Positions 1 to 41,722 of a DNA stretch of 64,000 nucleotides are shown one piece after another; positions within the stretch are counted from its first letter, which is position 1, and each line of letters starts with the position of its first letter. Below the pieces are notes generated by a model. It was not told the DNA's origin. It made no database searches and worked only from the letters and a program-made list of their open reading frames with translations. Source of the DNA: Sphingobacteriales bacterium 44-15 (lineage in GTDB: Bacteria; Bacteroidota; Bacteroidia; Chitinophagales; Chitinophagaceae); the NCBI GenBank assembly GCA_001899685.1, contig MKWG01000007.1:128206-192205 (forward strand), in the 5' to 3' direction. The position numbers and the translations under genes are program-made.

Positions 1-377
1 CACCACGTGATTCGTTCCACGGTCGCCGGGGCACGTGTCTCCACGTGCCGGAAAGATGAGACTGCGCTTCCCTCCTCTAAAACCTGAACATCGTTCGGGC
101 GGGTCTCACTGGCCGGAAAGTTGTGCATGAAGCGAAAATTATACATACCCCCTTAGCCCGGGCTTAGCGCTCTTTGCCTGCCCGACTAGTCATTCAGGCG
201 GGCGCAATTCCTTAGCGTCCTTTGCGGTAAAAAAAATTAACCGCAAAGGAAATACAAAGTTTTTCGCAAGACCACAAAGAAATTTAATAGGTATATTCTA
301 TGTTTTGCAGGCGCACCTGCTGGGCTGATCTGAAATGCGCCCCTTCCAAACTTACCTGGTAAGCCGCATAATAAGGA
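1..377. repeat. Gene-free left edge with mixed inverted-repeat fragments
   Basis: No convincing gene is seen here. Positions 30-49 form a perfect hairpin with GGCACGTG/CACGTGCC arms and a four-base loop. Positions 218-250 form an 11-bp stem (TCCTTTGCGGT/ACCGCAAAGGA). Roughly 90-138 is the reverse complement of the start of the repeat at 14554-14804 (shared AACTTTCCGG, GAGACCCGCCCGAAC and CGATGTT). A lone TIR half (TGAAATGCGCCC) lies at 331-342. The stretch looks like a mosaic of nested dispersed repeats rather than a promoter, since the first gene runs toward it. Confidence 0.6.
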
Positions 378-6212: not shown

Positions 6213-6271
6213 GCAGGCAACCTGCCGGTGAGCAAAAAAACAAAGAAAGCTGCACGCAAACGTTTGACTAC

Positions 6272-6372
6272 GGGCGCATTTCAAATTTTCACACCATTTC
6301 TCCCCTTTCTGCTGCACGGAGAGGGATTGCAGGGGTGAGGGAAATATGTGCCGCAAAATTTGAAATGCGCCC
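6272..6372. repeat. Miniature element with terminal inverted repeats
   Basis: The left end GGGCGCATTTCAAATTTT and the right end AAAATTTGAAATGCGCCC are perfect inverted repeats of 18 bp bounding about 65 bp of unrelated interior. Related ends occur at 14554-14804 and 40859-40996, with a single half at 331-342. No target duplication was recognised and no transposase is present. Confidence 0.7.
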
Positions 6373-6446
6373 TTTGTCTATCCGGATTAAGAAGAGAAAG
6401 ACTAACTTAACAGCCTCCTTTCACTTTATCAAAACATTACTTCATT

Positions 6447-7982
6447 ATGAAAAAACCAGGCGGGCTGTTTTTAATAATACTGCTGTTTATATGCGGGTTG
6501 CAACTGCGCGCTCAGCAATCCCTCCGCCCGAATATCATTGTTTTCCTGGTAGATGATATGGGTTGGCAGGATTGCTCCCTGCCTTTCTGGACTTCAGCAA
6601 CGCCTCTGAACAAACGATATCACACTCCCAATATGGAACGCCTTGCAAAGGAAGGTATGAAGTTTACCAATGCCTACGCCGCCCCGGTTTGTACGCCTTC
6701 GCGCAGCAGCATGCTCAGCGGGATGAATGTGGCGCATCATGGCATCACCAACTGGACCTCTCCGGCAAAAGACAACAATACGGATGCCAAAGACGATCAG
6801 TTTGAAGCCGCTCAATGGAACATGAACGGGTTAAGCCCAACAGCGGGTGTGGAAGCAACAGCTTATGCCACAGTTTTTCCCGAGTTACTGAAGCAATCCG
6901 GATATTTTACCATACATGTAGGCAAAGCACATTGGGCATCCTATGGAACGCCGGGCGCAAGCCCGTATAACATGGGCTTTATCGTAAATATTTCCGGGCA
7001 TTCTGCAGGGCATCCGCAGAGCTACCTCAGCGAAGAGCATTACGGCAATATGCCCCGCAAAGCGATCATACAGGCAGTCCCTGACCTCGAAGAGTACTAT
7101 GATTCAGGGACTTTCCTGACGGAAGCGCTCACACTCGAGGCCGAAAAAGCGCTGGAATACCCTATTAAAAATCATCAGCCCTTTTACCTGAATATGGCGC
7201 ATTACGCCGTACATACTCCCATCATGGGAGACAAACGTTTTGTTCAAAAATATCTTGACAATGGGCTTGACAGTATAGAAGCCAGGTATGTCAGCCTGCT
7301 TGAGGGAATGGATAAAAGCCTCGGCGATATCATGGATTTCCTTAAAGCAAAAGGCGTCGAGAAAAATACCATCATCATCTTTATGAGCGATAACGGAGGG
7401 CTTAGCCTTGCACCACCAAGAGGCGGCGCCCCGCATACGCAAAATCTCCCGCTGAAAGGAGGTAAAGGATCGGTATATGAAGGCGGTATCCGTGAGCCGA
7501 TGATCGTAAAATGGCCAGGCATTGTAAAGCCATCTTCGGTAACAGACCAGTATGTTATTATAGAAGATTTTTTCCCTGCCATACTTGAAATGGCGGGCGT
7601 GCGCAATTACAAAACCGTGCAGCGGGTTGACGGAAAAAGCTTTGTGCCTGTATTGAAAAACCCGTTGTATAAAGACACTTCACGGTTATTGATCTGGCAT
7701 TATCCCAATAAATGGCAGGACCAGGGCGGCCCAGGGATTAATTATTTCAGCGCCGCAAGAAAAGGCGACTGGAAACTGGTATATAGCCTGCGCACCGGCA
7801 AAGGAGAACTGTATAATCTGAAAGAGGATATCGGTGAAACAAACAATCTCGCGGCTAAATATCCTGCAAAACTAAAAGAGCTGGAATCCCTGCTGGGAAA
7901 AAAGCTGCAAACGTGGAATGCCCCTATGCCACTGGATAAAACAACGCGTCAGCCTGCAGCATGGCCGGGGCAAACCCTTTAG
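6447..7982 (+). CDS. Secreted sulfatase (Cys-type)
   Basis: 511 residues. A signal peptide ends near residue 22 (LRAQ). RPNIIVFLVDDMGWQD gives the two metal-binding Asp at 36-37. The sulfatase signature PVCTPSRSS places the formylglycine-forming cysteine at residue 82, followed by SMLSGMNVAHHG. IGKxHW-type (VGKAHW) and IIIFMSDNGG motifs complete the active site. Cys rather than Ser at the key site means an anSME or FGE maturase must be encoded elsewhere, as none is in the window. It forms a tandem pair with the next sulfatase, about 106 bp away, and may share a transcript. The substrate is unknown; such enzymes remove sulfate from glycans or aryl sulfates. Confidence 0.92.
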   Translation: MKKPGGLFLIILLFICGLQLRAQQSLRPNIIVFLVDDMGWQDCSLPFWTSATPLNKRYHTPNMERLAKEGMKFTNAYAAPVCTPSRSSMLSGMNVAHHGITNWTSPAKDNNTDAKDDQFEAAQWNMNGLSPTAGVEATAYATVFPELLKQSGYFTIHVGKAHWASYGTPGASPYNMGFIVNISGHSAGHPQSYLSEEHYGNMPRKAIIQAVPDLEEYYDSGTFLTEALTLEAEKALEYPIKNHQPFYLNMAHYAVHTPIMGDKRFVQKYLDNGLDSIEARYVSLLEGMDKSLGDIMDFLKAKGVEKNTIIIFMSDNGGLSLAPPRGGAPHTQNLPLKGGKGSVYEGGIREPMIVKWPGIVKPSSVTDQYVIIEDFFPAILEMAGVRNYKTVQRVDGKSFVPVLKNPLYKDTSRLLIWHYPNKWQDQGGPGINYFSAARKGDWKLVYSLRTGKGELYNLKEDIGETNNLAAKYPAKLKELESLLGKKLQTWNAPMPLDKTTRQPAAWPGQTL

Positions 7983-13835: not shown

Positions 13836-13927
13836 CATGCGCTTTTCGAAATCTGGTAAATGTTTTTTAATTTAACTTTTTAAAATCCATGCTGCCCGTT
13901 CGCAGAAGCAGGGATTTACTAACGCTT

Positions 13928-14551
13928 ATGTCAACAAAAGCAAGCCATACGAATATATGGGAGCGGCTCCGGGAAGGCAATAAAGATGCTTTGCTTTCCC
14001 TCTACAATGAGCATTATATCGGCTTGATGAACTACGGGATAAAGCTTACCAATAAAAGAGATATCACCAGGGATGCCATCACCCAGGTTTTGCTCCGGCT
14101 GTGGGATAACCGTTCCAGGCTGCCGGAAGTAAATAATGTACGATCTTACCTTCTCACCACTTTGCGCAGGGAACTGATGGCAGAAGTGAAAATGGAAAAC
14201 ATACGCCACACCAGGAACCAGGAAGCCTGTCAGCTTATCCCTACAGAGGAAAAGTCGTACGAGGAGCTGATCATTCAATGGCAGCACAACAATGAGCTGA
14301 GACTAAAGCTGGCAAAGGCTTTCAACACATTGACCGCAAGAGAAAAAGAGCTGCTGCAATTAAAGTTCTTTGAAGATCTTGACTATAAGGAAATTGCCGA
14401 AAGGTGTAATATTTCCAAAAGAACGGCTTATAATATCATTCATGCAGCCCTCAAATCGCTGCGAACCATTCTCATCGCCACTCCCAGGGAGAACAGTATC
14501 CCCGATCATATCCTGCTGAGCTGTATTTTTCTTATTTTAATACAAGCTTGA
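13928..14551 (+). CDS. ECF RNA polymerase sigma factor (FecI-like)
   Basis: 207 residues from 13928; an in-frame ATG at 13889 would add 13 residues. The shorter start puts sigma region 2 (WERLREGNKDALLSLYNEHY) at the usual distance from the N-terminus. Region 4 is clear: LTAREKELLQLKFFEDLDYKEIAERCNISKRTAYNIIHAALKSLR. A hydrophobic tail (HILLSCIFLILIQA) is common in Bacteroidota ECF factors of this group. With the FecR-type gene 346 bp downstream and SusC/SusD after that, it probably drives expression of the glycan-uptake genes when the outer-membrane receptor signals. Confidence 0.88.
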   Translation: MSTKASHTNIWERLREGNKDALLSLYNEHYIGLMNYGIKLTNKRDITRDAITQVLLRLWDNRSRLPEVNNVRSYLLTTLRRELMAEVKMENIRHTRNQEACQLIPTEEKSYEELIIQWQHNNELRLKLAKAFNTLTAREKELLQLKFFEDLDYKEIAERCNISKRTAYNIIHAALKSLRTILIATPRENSIPDHILLSCIFLILIQA

Positions 14552-14897
14552 AAGGGCGCATTTCATTTTTTCGCTCCATGCACAACTTTCCGGTTGGTGA
14601 GACCCGCCCGAACGATGTTCAGTCGGGCGGGCACCATAGCCGTCAACTTAAGCCCGGAGGGCTTGAATTTGAGTAGCCCTCAACAAAGTGGGGGGTAAAG
14701 TGTCGAAGTTTTTGTTGAACCCCGTAGGGGTTCAATGTCAAAACGGTTCAATTTATCCACCGGTTGCACCGGTGGTCCACCCGCCTGCGGAAAATTGAAA
14801 TGCAACCACCTGAAAATTACAGGGCGCTTCAAAAAATTATTTTCTTTTTTATAGTAAAAATCAAAAGTTACCTGCTCAATACTCCAAAGACAGCTTC
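14552..14897. other. 346-bp spacer between sigma and anti-sigma genes, filled by repeats
   Basis: No gene. Positions 14554-14804 hold a repeat element with inner hairpins at 14650-14664, 14715-14735 and 14757-14775. The last roughly 80 bases are A/T-rich and may contain the fecR promoter, but no clear consensus was found. The insertion may uncouple the two genes transcriptionally. Confidence 0.6.
14554..14804. repeat. Dispersed element with terminal inverted repeats and nested hairpins
   Basis: The left end GGGCGCATTTCATTTTTTCG and the right end reading inward GGTTGCATTTCAATTTTCCG are inverted copies. The inner sequence starts with CACAACTTTCCGG and GAGACCCGCCCGAAC, shared with 40859-40996 and with the left edge of the window. 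Nested perfect hairpins include TTGAACCCC/GGGGTTCAA and CCACCGG/CCGGTGG. Confidence 0.65.
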
Positions 14898-16025
14898 ATG
14901 AAATATACAGATTTTGAAATGGAAGATTTCGTTCTTGATAAATCCTTTCAGAATTATTGCCTGGAGAAAACTCCTGAAGATGTTGCTTTCTGGCAAAACT
15001 GGATAACGGAACATCCGGGAAAATCGGAAACCATCCGGCAGGCCAGGGAAATTTACATTGCCCTGAATGGCAATCATACTGCCGCTCAGTTTGTTGCTGA
15101 CAGGGAGGCATTTGCCATCATCGCCGAGAAGCATCTTTCGATGGCAATACCAGATACCGCCGGCGACTTTATACAGCCAGCAAAAAGCACGCTTGTACGA
15201 CGACTGGTATGGTACAGCAGTATTGCCGCTGCAGTCATTATTATCGCATTCTTTGTTTCAAGGCTTGAAAATCATATTCCCGCTACATCAGCTTCAAATC
15301 ATCAGCTTACTTATAATGTCACCGAAACAAGCAGGGAAGGTGAAAGAAAATCATTCCGGTTACCCGACGGAAGCAAGGTGATGCTGAACGCGGGGAGCAC
15401 TATGCAAATTGATGAAAATTTCAACACGAAAACCCGTGAGTTGTCGCTTGAAGGAGAAGCATTTTTTGATGTAGCGCATGATGCTTCCCGGCCTTTTATC
15501 ATACACACCAATAAGATGGATATAAAAGTACTGGGGACAATTTTTAACGTAAGGGCATATCCGGGAGATAAGACTACAGAAACTTCATTGATAAAAGGAT
15601 CAGTGGAAATAACGCTGCGGGAAAAAGCAATCAGGAAAATACTCCTGCGCCCCAATGAAAAAATAGTTCTTCCCAATCTCTCTGATCCGGCAAATACAAA
15701 AAATACCGAAACTAGGGGAAACAATGAACAGGATTTTAAAATAACAGGACTTACTTACAACAAGAACGAAGATATAGTTACAGAAGTATCCTGGACGCAA
15801 AATAGGCTTGCTTTCAGCAACTGCAGCTTTGAAACGATTGCCAAAGACCTGGAACGCTGGTATAATGTCACTATCCGCTTCACCAATGAAGAAGTAGAGC
15901 AATACAGGTTTACCGCAACTTTTGACCAGAAAAATATTGAACAGGTGCTAAAAGCATTGCAACTGTCCCGCTATTTTAAATATACTATTACAGAAGGCAA
16001 CAATATTATAATCAGTAAACAATAG
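14898..16025 (+). CDS. FecR-family anti-sigma factor
   Basis: 375 residues. A cytoplasmic N-terminal part with the FWQNWITEHPGK motif would bind the sigma factor. One membrane helix lies at about 104-121. The periplasmic FecR domain follows with LPDGSKVMLNAGSTMQI, ELSLEGEAFFDVAHD and VLGTIFNVRAYP, then a C-terminal SusC-signalling region (STN-like) ending IIISKQ. This arrangement is standard for transmembrane control of the partner ECF factor by the TonB-dependent receptor. It lies directly upstream of susC. Confidence 0.92.
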   Translation: MKYTDFEMEDFVLDKSFQNYCLEKTPEDVAFWQNWITEHPGKSETIRQAREIYIALNGNHTAAQFVADREAFAIIAEKHLSMAIPDTAGDFIQPAKSTLVRRLVWYSSIAAAVIIIAFFVSRLENHIPATSASNHQLTYNVTETSREGERKSFRLPDGSKVMLNAGSTMQIDENFNTKTRELSLEGEAFFDVAHDASRPFIIHTNKMDIKVLGTIFNVRAYPGDKTTETSLIKGSVEITLREKAIRKILLRPNEKIVLPNLSDPANTKNTETRGNNEQDFKITGLTYNKNEDIVTEVSWTQNRLAFSNCSFETIAKDLERWYNVTIRFTNEEVEQYRFTATFDQKNIEQVLKALQLSRYFKYTITEGNNIIISKQ

Positions 16026-40096: not shown

Positions 40097-40798
40097 TTAC
40101 CTGGTGGGTTCCTGCAGCACATCAATAAACTCAGCGCTTGCAGCTTCCATCCTGTTCACGTTCTTATCTATCTGCGCATTCAGATAGTTGTACCCTACAT
40201 AAGCCAGCAACCCGATGATGAGACCACTGGCAGAAGTGACCATCTTGGTATAAATACCACCGGCAATAGTCCCTAAGGTATACTCGCCGGTAGAAGATAT
40301 CCCGTAAAATAATTGTACCATCCCTACTATAGTGCCCAGGAAACCAAACATAGGCGCTATACCTGCTATCAGAGACAGCACATTCAGGTTTCTTTCCATT
40401 TTATATACTTCAAGTTTACCTACATTCTCCATGCTTTTTTCTATGGCATCTATTGGTTTTCCGATACGCTGCAATCCTTTATCAATGATCCTGGCGACCG
40501 GGTTAAACGTATTTTTCGCCAGCGACCTGGCAGCGGTTACATTCCCGTTTACAATATGATCCCGGATAATACTCATGAAATTATAATCCACCTTCCCGGC
40601 ATTGCGTATAGCGATCAGCCTTTCAAAGAAAAAAAAGATCGCAATTACCAGCAACAAAAAAAGAGGCACCATTATCCATCCGCCCGATAATAAAAGATCC
40701 CAAAGGCTGATCTTAGTACCCGGCTCCGGTATACCATGTTGGGCTGCTACTGCTTTATTGAGAGAATCTGTAGCTACCTGCAGGAAAAATAACTTCAT
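40097..40798 (-). CDS. exbB: MotA/TolQ/ExbB-family proton channel
   Basis: 233 residues. Three membrane helices: about 37-58 (WIMVPLFLLLVIAIFFFFE), 140-165 (LSLIAGIAPMFGFLGTIVGMV) and 185-210 (ASGLIIGLLAYVGYNYL). The conserved GFLGTVxGM-type loop and the LARxGLxxI-like cytoplasmic region are present. It assembles with the ExbD-like protein downstream. Clients likely include the TonB-dependent receptors in this window (3404 and 16135), inferred from family role only. Confidence 0.92.
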   Translation of the reverse strand: MKLFFLQVATDSLNKAVAAQHGIPEPGTKISLWDLLLSGGWIMVPLFLLLVIAIFFFFERLIAIRNAGKVDYNFMSIIRDHIVNGNVTAARSLAKNTFNPVARIIDKGLQRIGKPIDAIEKSMENVGKLEVYKMERNLNVLSLIAGIAPMFGFLGTIVGMVQLFYGISSTGEYTLGTIAGGIYTKMVTSASGLIIGLLAYVGYNYLNAQIDKNVNRMEAASAEFIDVLQEPTR

Positions 40799-40858
40799 AT
40801 TATAGTGTTATTGTAAAGTGCGACAAATGTAATGACTCTTACAGAACTTTAGCTGGTT

Positions 40859-40996
40859 GGGCGTATTTCAATTTTCGCGGTACACAACTTTCCGGCCGGT
40901 GAGACCTGCCCGACTGCGTCATTCAGGCGGGCACCGATCGGTAGCGGTTTCTACAGGCGGGTATCCCCATCCGCCTGCGAAAAACTGGAATACGCT
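40859..40996. repeat. Dispersed element with terminal inverted repeats
   Basis: The left end GGGCGTATTTCAATTTTCGC and the right end GCGAAAAACTGGAATACGC are inverted copies. The interior carries CACAACTTTCCGGCCGGTGA and GCCCGACTGCG, shared with 14554-14804. It lies in the 405-bp gene-free stretch 40799-41203; the remainder holds a hairpin repeat at 41143-41198. Confidence 0.65.
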
Positions 40997-41142
40997 CAGC
41001 CGGTTCATTGCCGGACGTGAAAATAGTGTGATTATTTTTTTATATTCCTTCCCGGCAATTCTATTAACAATTTTTATAGAAAGGCGGAACGGCGGTCATT
41101 CCGGCAACTATTGTTAAGTCAGGCAAATTATGCCCGTGTATT

Positions 41143-41198
41143 ATCGTGAAAAGCGAGAAGATAAAGGTGAAAGAATATCTCACGTTTCTCGTTTGACA
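41143..41198. repeat. GTGAAA/TCACGTTT dispersed hairpin (short copy)
   Basis: ATCGTGAAAAGCGAGAAG faces ATCTCACGTTTCTCGTTTGA. It ends six bases before the stop of the DUF7935-like gene and may act as its terminator. Confidence 0.65.
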
Positions 41199-41203
41199 CA
41201 GCG

Positions 41204-41722
41204 CTATGCGCCACTCATTATCTTTTTGGCATCAAAACGAAGCGTTTCAATGACCACGGTATGCAGTGAAGTCTTGGGATCCGCATCCAGCAATTCGAGT
41301 ATACGCTTACAAAGATCGGGCCCGGATGCTCCCTGCGGGAGTGTATTTGCCAGTTGATGGATAATGAAAATATTCTGCTCTTTCAGGTTGGTTATTGCCT
41401 GCCATACCTGGGGTGAAACATATAACTGCTGGGAGAGATTATAATCATATTCCTGTTTTATTGTTTCTACCAGCAGGCGCTGGTATGTGTCGGCGGTCAT
41501 ACCTGCCGGGGCGATCCTTGCTACCAGGTTTTTCAGGGCAAGGCGCTCCGCAAGTATGGTAAGCCGCTCATGGGCCTGCAATTGCAGGCTTTTGTCCAGT
41601 GCCGGTTGCTTTTCTGCTTTCTTTATCTCTTTTACATCACTCCTGTATACAAAAATATAAATGCCCAAAAAGCATATAATGATCACAACAGCGATAATGG
41701 TAATAGTGGTATTGTCTAACAT
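41204..41722 (-). CDS. Conserved membrane-anchored protein (DUF7935-like)
   Basis: 172 residues: one N-terminal helix (ITIIAVVIIICFLGIYIFVY) then a charged, helical cytoplasmic part (LQLQAHERLTILAERLALKNLVARI, then YDYNLSQQLYVSPQVWQAI). This arrangement resembles a Bacteroidota family listed as DUF7935; the function is unknown. It lies alone, downstream of the ExbB gene's divergent side and convergent to nothing close. Confidence 0.65.
   Translation of the reverse strand: MLDNTTITIIAVVIIICFLGIYIFVYRSDVKEIKKAEKQPALDKSLQLQAHERLTILAERLALKNLVARIAPAGMTADTYQRLLVETIKQEYDYNLSQQLYVSPQVWQAITNLKEQNIFIIHQLANTLPQGASGPDLCKRILELLDADPKTSLHTVVIETLRFDAKKIMSGA

Follow-up and report, generated by a model that had tools for sequence, protein, structure and literature searches.

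The window (the whole stretch of DNA that was analysed, 64,000 nucleotides from Sphingobacteriales bacterium 44-15, hereafter the source genome) contains several short repeats with similar ends. The element at positions 6272-6372 has no assigned strand. It is 101 bp long and is delimited by two 18-bp terminal inverted repeats (6272-6289 and 6355-6372), which match each other inversely without any mismatch. A previous reading of the letters alone (the sequence-only reading) had described it in these terms, and the description holds. With up to three mismatches, the 18-bp end occurs four times in the window, where 0.20 occurrences would be expected, and none of 100 shuffles reached four. The element is directly flanked by two 9-bp target duplications, TTTGACTAC (6263-6271) and TTTGTCTAT (6373-6381), which are likewise unstranded and agree at 7 of 9 positions. 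A weak -7-like promoter box, TAACTTAA, is found on the plus strand at 6403-6410, 31 bp from the junction of the element. It matches the motif TAnnTTTG in part only and is placed upstream of a sulfatase gene (by Pfam) at 6447.

Two larger elements, both on the plus strand, were taken by the sequence-only reading as relatives that keep these ends. Their ends are indeed similar, but both belong to a second family (family B, with the element at 6272 in family A), and their right limits are 14807 rather than 14804 and 40997 rather than 40996. When the right ends are reset accordingly, imperfect 8-bp target duplications emerge. The first of these elements (14554-14807, 254 bp) has terminal inverted repeats and a longer interior; its duplication (GCTTGAAA/ACCTGAAA) is identical at 6 of 8 positions. 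It is located between a gene for an ECF-type sigma factor (13889-14551) and a FecR gene (14898-16025), both assigned by Pfam, and has a partial -7 box only, again at 31 bp. The second (40859-40997, 139 bp) has terminal inverted repeats and is flanked by the unstranded duplications AGCTGGTT (40851-40858) and AGCCGGTT (40998-41005), which match at 7 of 8 positions. Here, a -7 promoter box that fits TAnnTTTG (TACATTTG, 40824-40831, minus strand) lies 28 bp from the junction and precedes a gene for an ExbB/TolQ-like protein (40097-40798, minus strand, by Pfam). The fit to the motif is kept in all seven sibling loci that were aligned ("sibling" denotes another genome of the genus). Next to this element, at about 41097-41206, is a different repeat with many matches in the source genome, which also occurs in at least four of the 11 siblings.

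The two family B elements were said to share an inner block that recurs in inverted form at the left window edge, and this is correct: CACAACTTTCCGG is present as an exact copy at 14581 (plus strand), 40883 (plus strand) and 113-125 (minus strand). The block alone is a weak signal, as it is found four times with two mismatches allowed against 1.3 expected, and 4 of 100 shuffles reach this count. The copy at the left edge is probably a decayed family B element on the minus strand (113-342), which combines the inner block with one degenerate end (325-342, four mismatches), the only end that could be delimited. The interior of the long family B element (14641-14790) looks, by eye, like a module that a sibling genome carries within a long repeat (GGGGTTCAATG...CCACCGGTT). 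From this likeness, the interiors may vary because modules are exchanged.

The end is abundant beyond the window. With up to two mismatches, it occurs 116 times (57 + 59) in the source genome, while a reversed-pattern control gave no occurrence. A 141-bp query yielded 33 matches in the source genome, and 29 full-length family A copies were taken for analysis. From all loci fetched up to that point, 169 end pairs were collected that are 71-508 bp apart, a span too short for a transposase, as are the 101 bp at 6272. The interiors of these 169 were grouped. Family A has 55 members with a median length of 104 bp, family B has 66 with a median of 116 bp, and each has 28 members in the source genome. 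A third family has 13 members (median 168 bp), and there are several small families and 18 singletons. Family B has matches in all 12 genomes of the genus. Family A has matches in 10 of 12, but in three of these it is the 21-bp end alone, so that the interior is present in 7 of 12.

Several lines of evidence point to transposition. Among the 29 family A copies, 14 have an 8-bp duplication, seven have a 9-bp duplication and eight have neither. Their 8-bp flanks match at 132 of 232 letters, compared to 67.4 +- 7.7 when flanks are re-paired (0 of 1000 re-pairings were as high). In the larger set, a duplication accompanies 111 of the 169 end pairs (71 of 8 bp, 40 of 9 bp; none in the other 58), while controls with a displaced right flank gave 2, 4, 2, 1 and 1 of 169. 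Target-site duplications, which the sequence-only reading had named as a check, are thus present. Those in the window are all imperfect, as expected of old insertions. Empty sites in relatives were another check. In a search of 11 siblings, the element at 40859-40997 proved to be absent from all ten siblings that had both flanks among the matches listed. In these, the flanks adjoin (overlapping by 7 bp at one extreme and separated by 35 bp at the other), compared to 140-175 bp in the window. Seven of the sibling loci align through the site at 78-83% identity once the element and one copy of the duplication are removed, with a few poorly similar bases at the junction in several of them. There are two further empty sites. 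At one of them, a sibling carries an element resembling family A, and the corresponding place in the source genome is empty (the two align at 68.7% identity, with small gaps). At the other, a second sibling has an element of 251 bp within a repeat that has other copies without it (92-95% identity). For the element at 6272, no sibling genome matched both flanks in the empty-site search. That the repeats in the window are true non-autonomous mini-transposons (MITEs) is well supported by these comparisons of sequences. Related bacteria have a small insertion sequence with the same or nearly the same ends.

This insertion sequence was reached by scanning public genomes for the MITE end, which gave at least 105 stretches. 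Among 13 terminal inverted repeat pairs at 500-3500 bp that enclose an open reading frame of at least 150 aa in the loci fetched by then, two appeared transposase-like by eye (L164 and L132). L164 is an insertion sequence of 1263 bp with perfect inverted ends of the MITE kind and an 8-bp duplication. Its transposase was detected at an E-value of 1e-40 or better in 9 of 294 genomes of the family, and in seven of these nine a total of eight elements could be delimited, one of which (L267) is more distant. The nine elements related to L164, counting L164 itself and the broken L132, are 1259-1337 bp long, and their ends deviate by 0-3 mismatches from the consensus of the MITE end. In six of the nine (L164, L214, L261, L262, L263 and L268), the 8-bp duplication is identical at all eight positions; there is none in L132, L213 and L264. 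A separate pair of ends, 6.09 kb apart in two siblings, was considered as a large transposon and was rejected, being one syntenic locus of SusC/SusD type (by eye from the open reading frames). This locus (L193 and L194) is 97% identical between the two siblings and has a terminal inverted repeat match on each side.

For all seven transposases that were scanned, the NCBIfam profile ISKra4 is the best hit. The scores (161-202 bits; 192.9 bits for the frameshift product of L164) are just below the cut-off of 205 bits, which is why we use the label "ISKra4-like" and do not assign membership in the family. The one transposase that was tested passes the threshold of the Pfam family UPF0236. The residues D106, D179, D200 and E289 are invariant across seven aligned transposases and are candidate DDE residues. 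The named ISKra4 transposases of Tolypothrix plasmids show a 27.5% match, and no solved structure was found at an E-value of 1. According to section 11 of PMC3942029, the ISKra4 family has inverted ends of 18-39 bp and duplications of 8 or 9 bp, and the partner insertion sequences resemble it in both respects. The same source equates the family with p-MULT 4 and divides it into the groups ISAzba1, ISMich2 and ISKra4. It describes the ISMich2 group as having two open reading frames that are joined by a -1 frameshift. The partner elements share the two-frame layout but differ in the shift. In all seven intact elements (L164, L213, L261, L262, L263, L264 and L268), a run of nine A at about base 231-316 joins two overlapping reading frames, and when the run is read as eight A, a product of 387-392 aa results. 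This appears to be a conserved slippage site, ribosomal or transcriptional, with an apparent shift of +1. In L132 the run has eight A and the break lies at another place, L214 is an interrupted copy, and L267, the more distant element, requires -1.

A transposase gene with matching ends, as had been called for, thus exists in relatives, but not as an intact gene in the source genome, where remnants only were found. Across the class, a search of 395 genomes at an E-value of 1e-60 gave no hit, a cut-off so strict that this is no proof of absence. One remnant in the source genome (L215:1402-1791) is an internally deleted ISKra4-like insertion sequence of 390 bp, which retains both ends and parts of both reading frames. 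Its ends are similar to those of the MITEs, it has no clear duplication, and it is perhaps an incipient MITE. Apart from this remnant, no match was found between the interiors of MITEs and those of insertion sequences, so that the ends are the main connection. Since transposase remnants only were found in the source genome, its MITE copies probably no longer move, unless a transposase is brought in from elsewhere.

The elements show a distinct position relative to promoters, a pattern that the sequence-only reading missed. The sides of the 111 elements with a duplication were classified by the nearest open reading frame of at least 100 aa, giving 138 flanks that face the start of a reading frame and 73 inward flanks that face its end. 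Reading frames were called mechanically, and promoters were inferred from the -7 box alone, which in Bacteroidota is described as TAnnTTTG with its T at -12 (PMC6847099, in the part drawn on here). Within 120 bp, the start-facing flanks contain 41 such boxes, 32 of which begin at 24-42 bp from the junction. The end-facing flanks contain the motif twice, and never at 24-42 bp (32/138 versus 0/73, Fisher p 3.6e-7). Hence, 23% of the start-facing flanks have a strict box in this range. Upon permutation of the junction-to-start distances, 7.3 +- 2.4 boxes were obtained, with a maximum of 16 in 10,000 permutations, compared to 31 observed. Letter-shuffled flanks gave 1.6 boxes at 24-42 bp. Boxes that read towards the element (10 on start-facing and 4 on end-facing flanks) are unclustered. 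A filter for redundant flanks (75% over 60 bp) removed none. The excess is seen in the source genome (15 of 18 boxes at 24-42 bp) and in the other genomes (17 of 23). The range was set after the first 86 elements had been examined. Among loci fetched after that point, 31 flanks contain 10 boxes, of which 6 fall within the range (p 0.0026) and 4 outside; 17 inward flanks contain none.

The box positions peak at 27-29 and 38-41 bp (near 28 and 39 bp), with few at 35-37 bp. That the two peaks are about one helical turn apart is suggestive only. By our conversion to start-point coordinates, the first base outside the element falls near -39 or near -50. A TTTG at -33 was sought and was not enriched. 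The 32 boxed sides reveal no fixed orientation of the element (6 and 6 in family A, 10 and 5 in family B, and 5 in others). The related insertion sequences are positioned similarly: nine strict boxes occur within 120 bp of their ends, and in six of the nine elements, one end is followed by a strict box at a distance of 24-42 bp. Seven of nine have a relaxed box at 25-40 bp, a form that is not rare by chance, as TAnnTTT occurs in 8 of the 73 inward flanks. The box of an insertion sequence sometimes faces away from the nearer start of a reading frame. The genes adjacent to the 111 elements are arranged in tandem (59), divergently (36) or convergently (6), with 10 undetermined. The set spacing upstream of promoters points to promoter recognition by the transposition machinery.

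The same pattern could arise by survivorship, if insertion were random and only those copies persisted that spare promoters and genes. Selection must act on copies this old, and harmful insertions may have been lost; the scan of reading frames would also be blind to insertions within genes, since an insertion splits the reading frame that it enters. For this reason, a count of insertions inside genes was uninformative and was dropped. Nevertheless, insertions at greater distances should do no more harm, and yet the boxes on the 138 flanks drop from 32 at 24-42 bp to 7 strict boxes at 46-120 bp. Convergent gaps, in which there is no promoter to harm, hold few copies: 6 of the 101 elements for which both neighbours were called, against a share of about 22% in the intergenic sequence of the window. 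We consider survivorship unlikely as the source of the spacing.

Two other explanations concern the nature of the elements. They might be moved by another transposase family that also produces duplications of 8-9 bp, with the ends being shared by coincidence. This would agree with the failure to find an intact ISKra4-like gene in the source genome and with MITE interiors that are unrelated to the insertion sequences. Coincidence would, however, have to account at once for 18-20 bp of shared end sequence, for the equal length of the duplications and for promoter spacings that are alike, the 390-bp derivative with similar ends is found in the source genome itself, and both transposase-like genes among the 13 end pairs proved to be ISKra4-like; we regard this explanation as very improbable. 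Alternatively, the elements might be retained as structured RNA or regulatory hairpins (terminators, attenuators or REP-like sequences) instead of being plain products of transposition. With RNA parameters, one long hairpin (-60.8 kcal/mol) is predicted for the consensus of family A, a structure that inverted ends yield anyway. The boxed elements are upstream of the box and so would not be transcribed from the promoter they face, no Rfam family reached its gathering score within the window, and the duplications and empty sites show transposition. This leaves a role as structured RNA barely credible as the reason for their presence.

The explanation that we prefer, with a probability of about 0.82, is that the elements are MITEs with the ends of an ISKra4-like insertion sequence (Mutator-type, p-MULT 4-like), and that their insertions cluster at a set spacing upstream of Bacteroidota promoters. 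The sequence-only reading was right in taking them for MITE-like elements, as the duplications, empty sites and transposases with matching ends indicate, but it was incomplete, as it named no partner transposase. From the ends, the duplications and the spacing, we infer the link between the MITEs and the ISKra4-like transposases. The short copies, which carry no transposase, would keep the terminal inverted repeats that the transposase recognises. The enzyme would cut at the ends of the element and insert it at a staggered cut of 8 or 9 bp, so that the MITEs would be mobilised in trans. It may be guided to promoters, most simply via RNA polymerase or via the DNA geometry that the polymerase imposes, and not by the target sequence.

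In the sections of PMC3942029 drawn on here, promoter targeting is placed in p-MULT 3 and, within p-MULT 4, in the ISKra4 group only, and a transposase motif tied to promoter specificity is described (section 15). TnGBS and its relatives insert 15-17 bases upstream of the -35 element of classical sigma-A promoters. The MITEs resemble TnGBS and ISLre2 (p-MULT 3) in their set distance upstream of promoters; by our conversion, the distance reported for TnGBS would be equivalent to about -51 and would correspond to the second peak. They differ in that the insertion of TnGBS and ISLre2 is oriented and occurs at classical sigma-A promoters, while here either end faces a Bacteroidota promoter, and in that there is an additional peak that lies nearer by about one helical turn. 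The MITEs of Porphyromonas gingivalis (PMC4596501, as far as that source was drawn on) are comparable as short elements with inverted ends in a Bacteroidota genome. Promoter-directed insertion is reported for a few Mutator-type families (TnGBS, ISLre2 and the ISKra4 group) at classical sigma-A promoters; here it seems to occur in MITEs as well, and at the promoter of Bacteroidota, which diverges from the classical one. The lineage seems to join promoter-linked insertion with an apparent +1 shift, which is unlike the p-MULT groupings in the sections of PMC3942029 mentioned above. Among the titles listed for Bacteroidota MITEs, ISKra4, ISMich2, promoter targeting and the -7 box in open-access PMC text, none reports the finding, which does not show that it is unpublished.

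Relative to the start point, insertions lie about as far upstream as at classical promoters (about -50, and a second group at about -39), despite a different promoter sequence. This leads us to speculate, tentatively and with more doubt than confidence, that the ISKra4-like lineage of Bacteroidota targets promoter-bound RNA polymerase, or the DNA geometry at such sites, and not a sequence. A like spacing at a very different Bacteroidota promoter helps to separate recognition of a sequence from recognition of the polymerase, and the many MITE copies provide a natural record of target choice. As similar upstream DNA has been placed beside many promoters, effects on expression are testable. If the reading as polymerase recognition is true, these genomes would have been dotted over time with MITEs directly upstream of many promoters.
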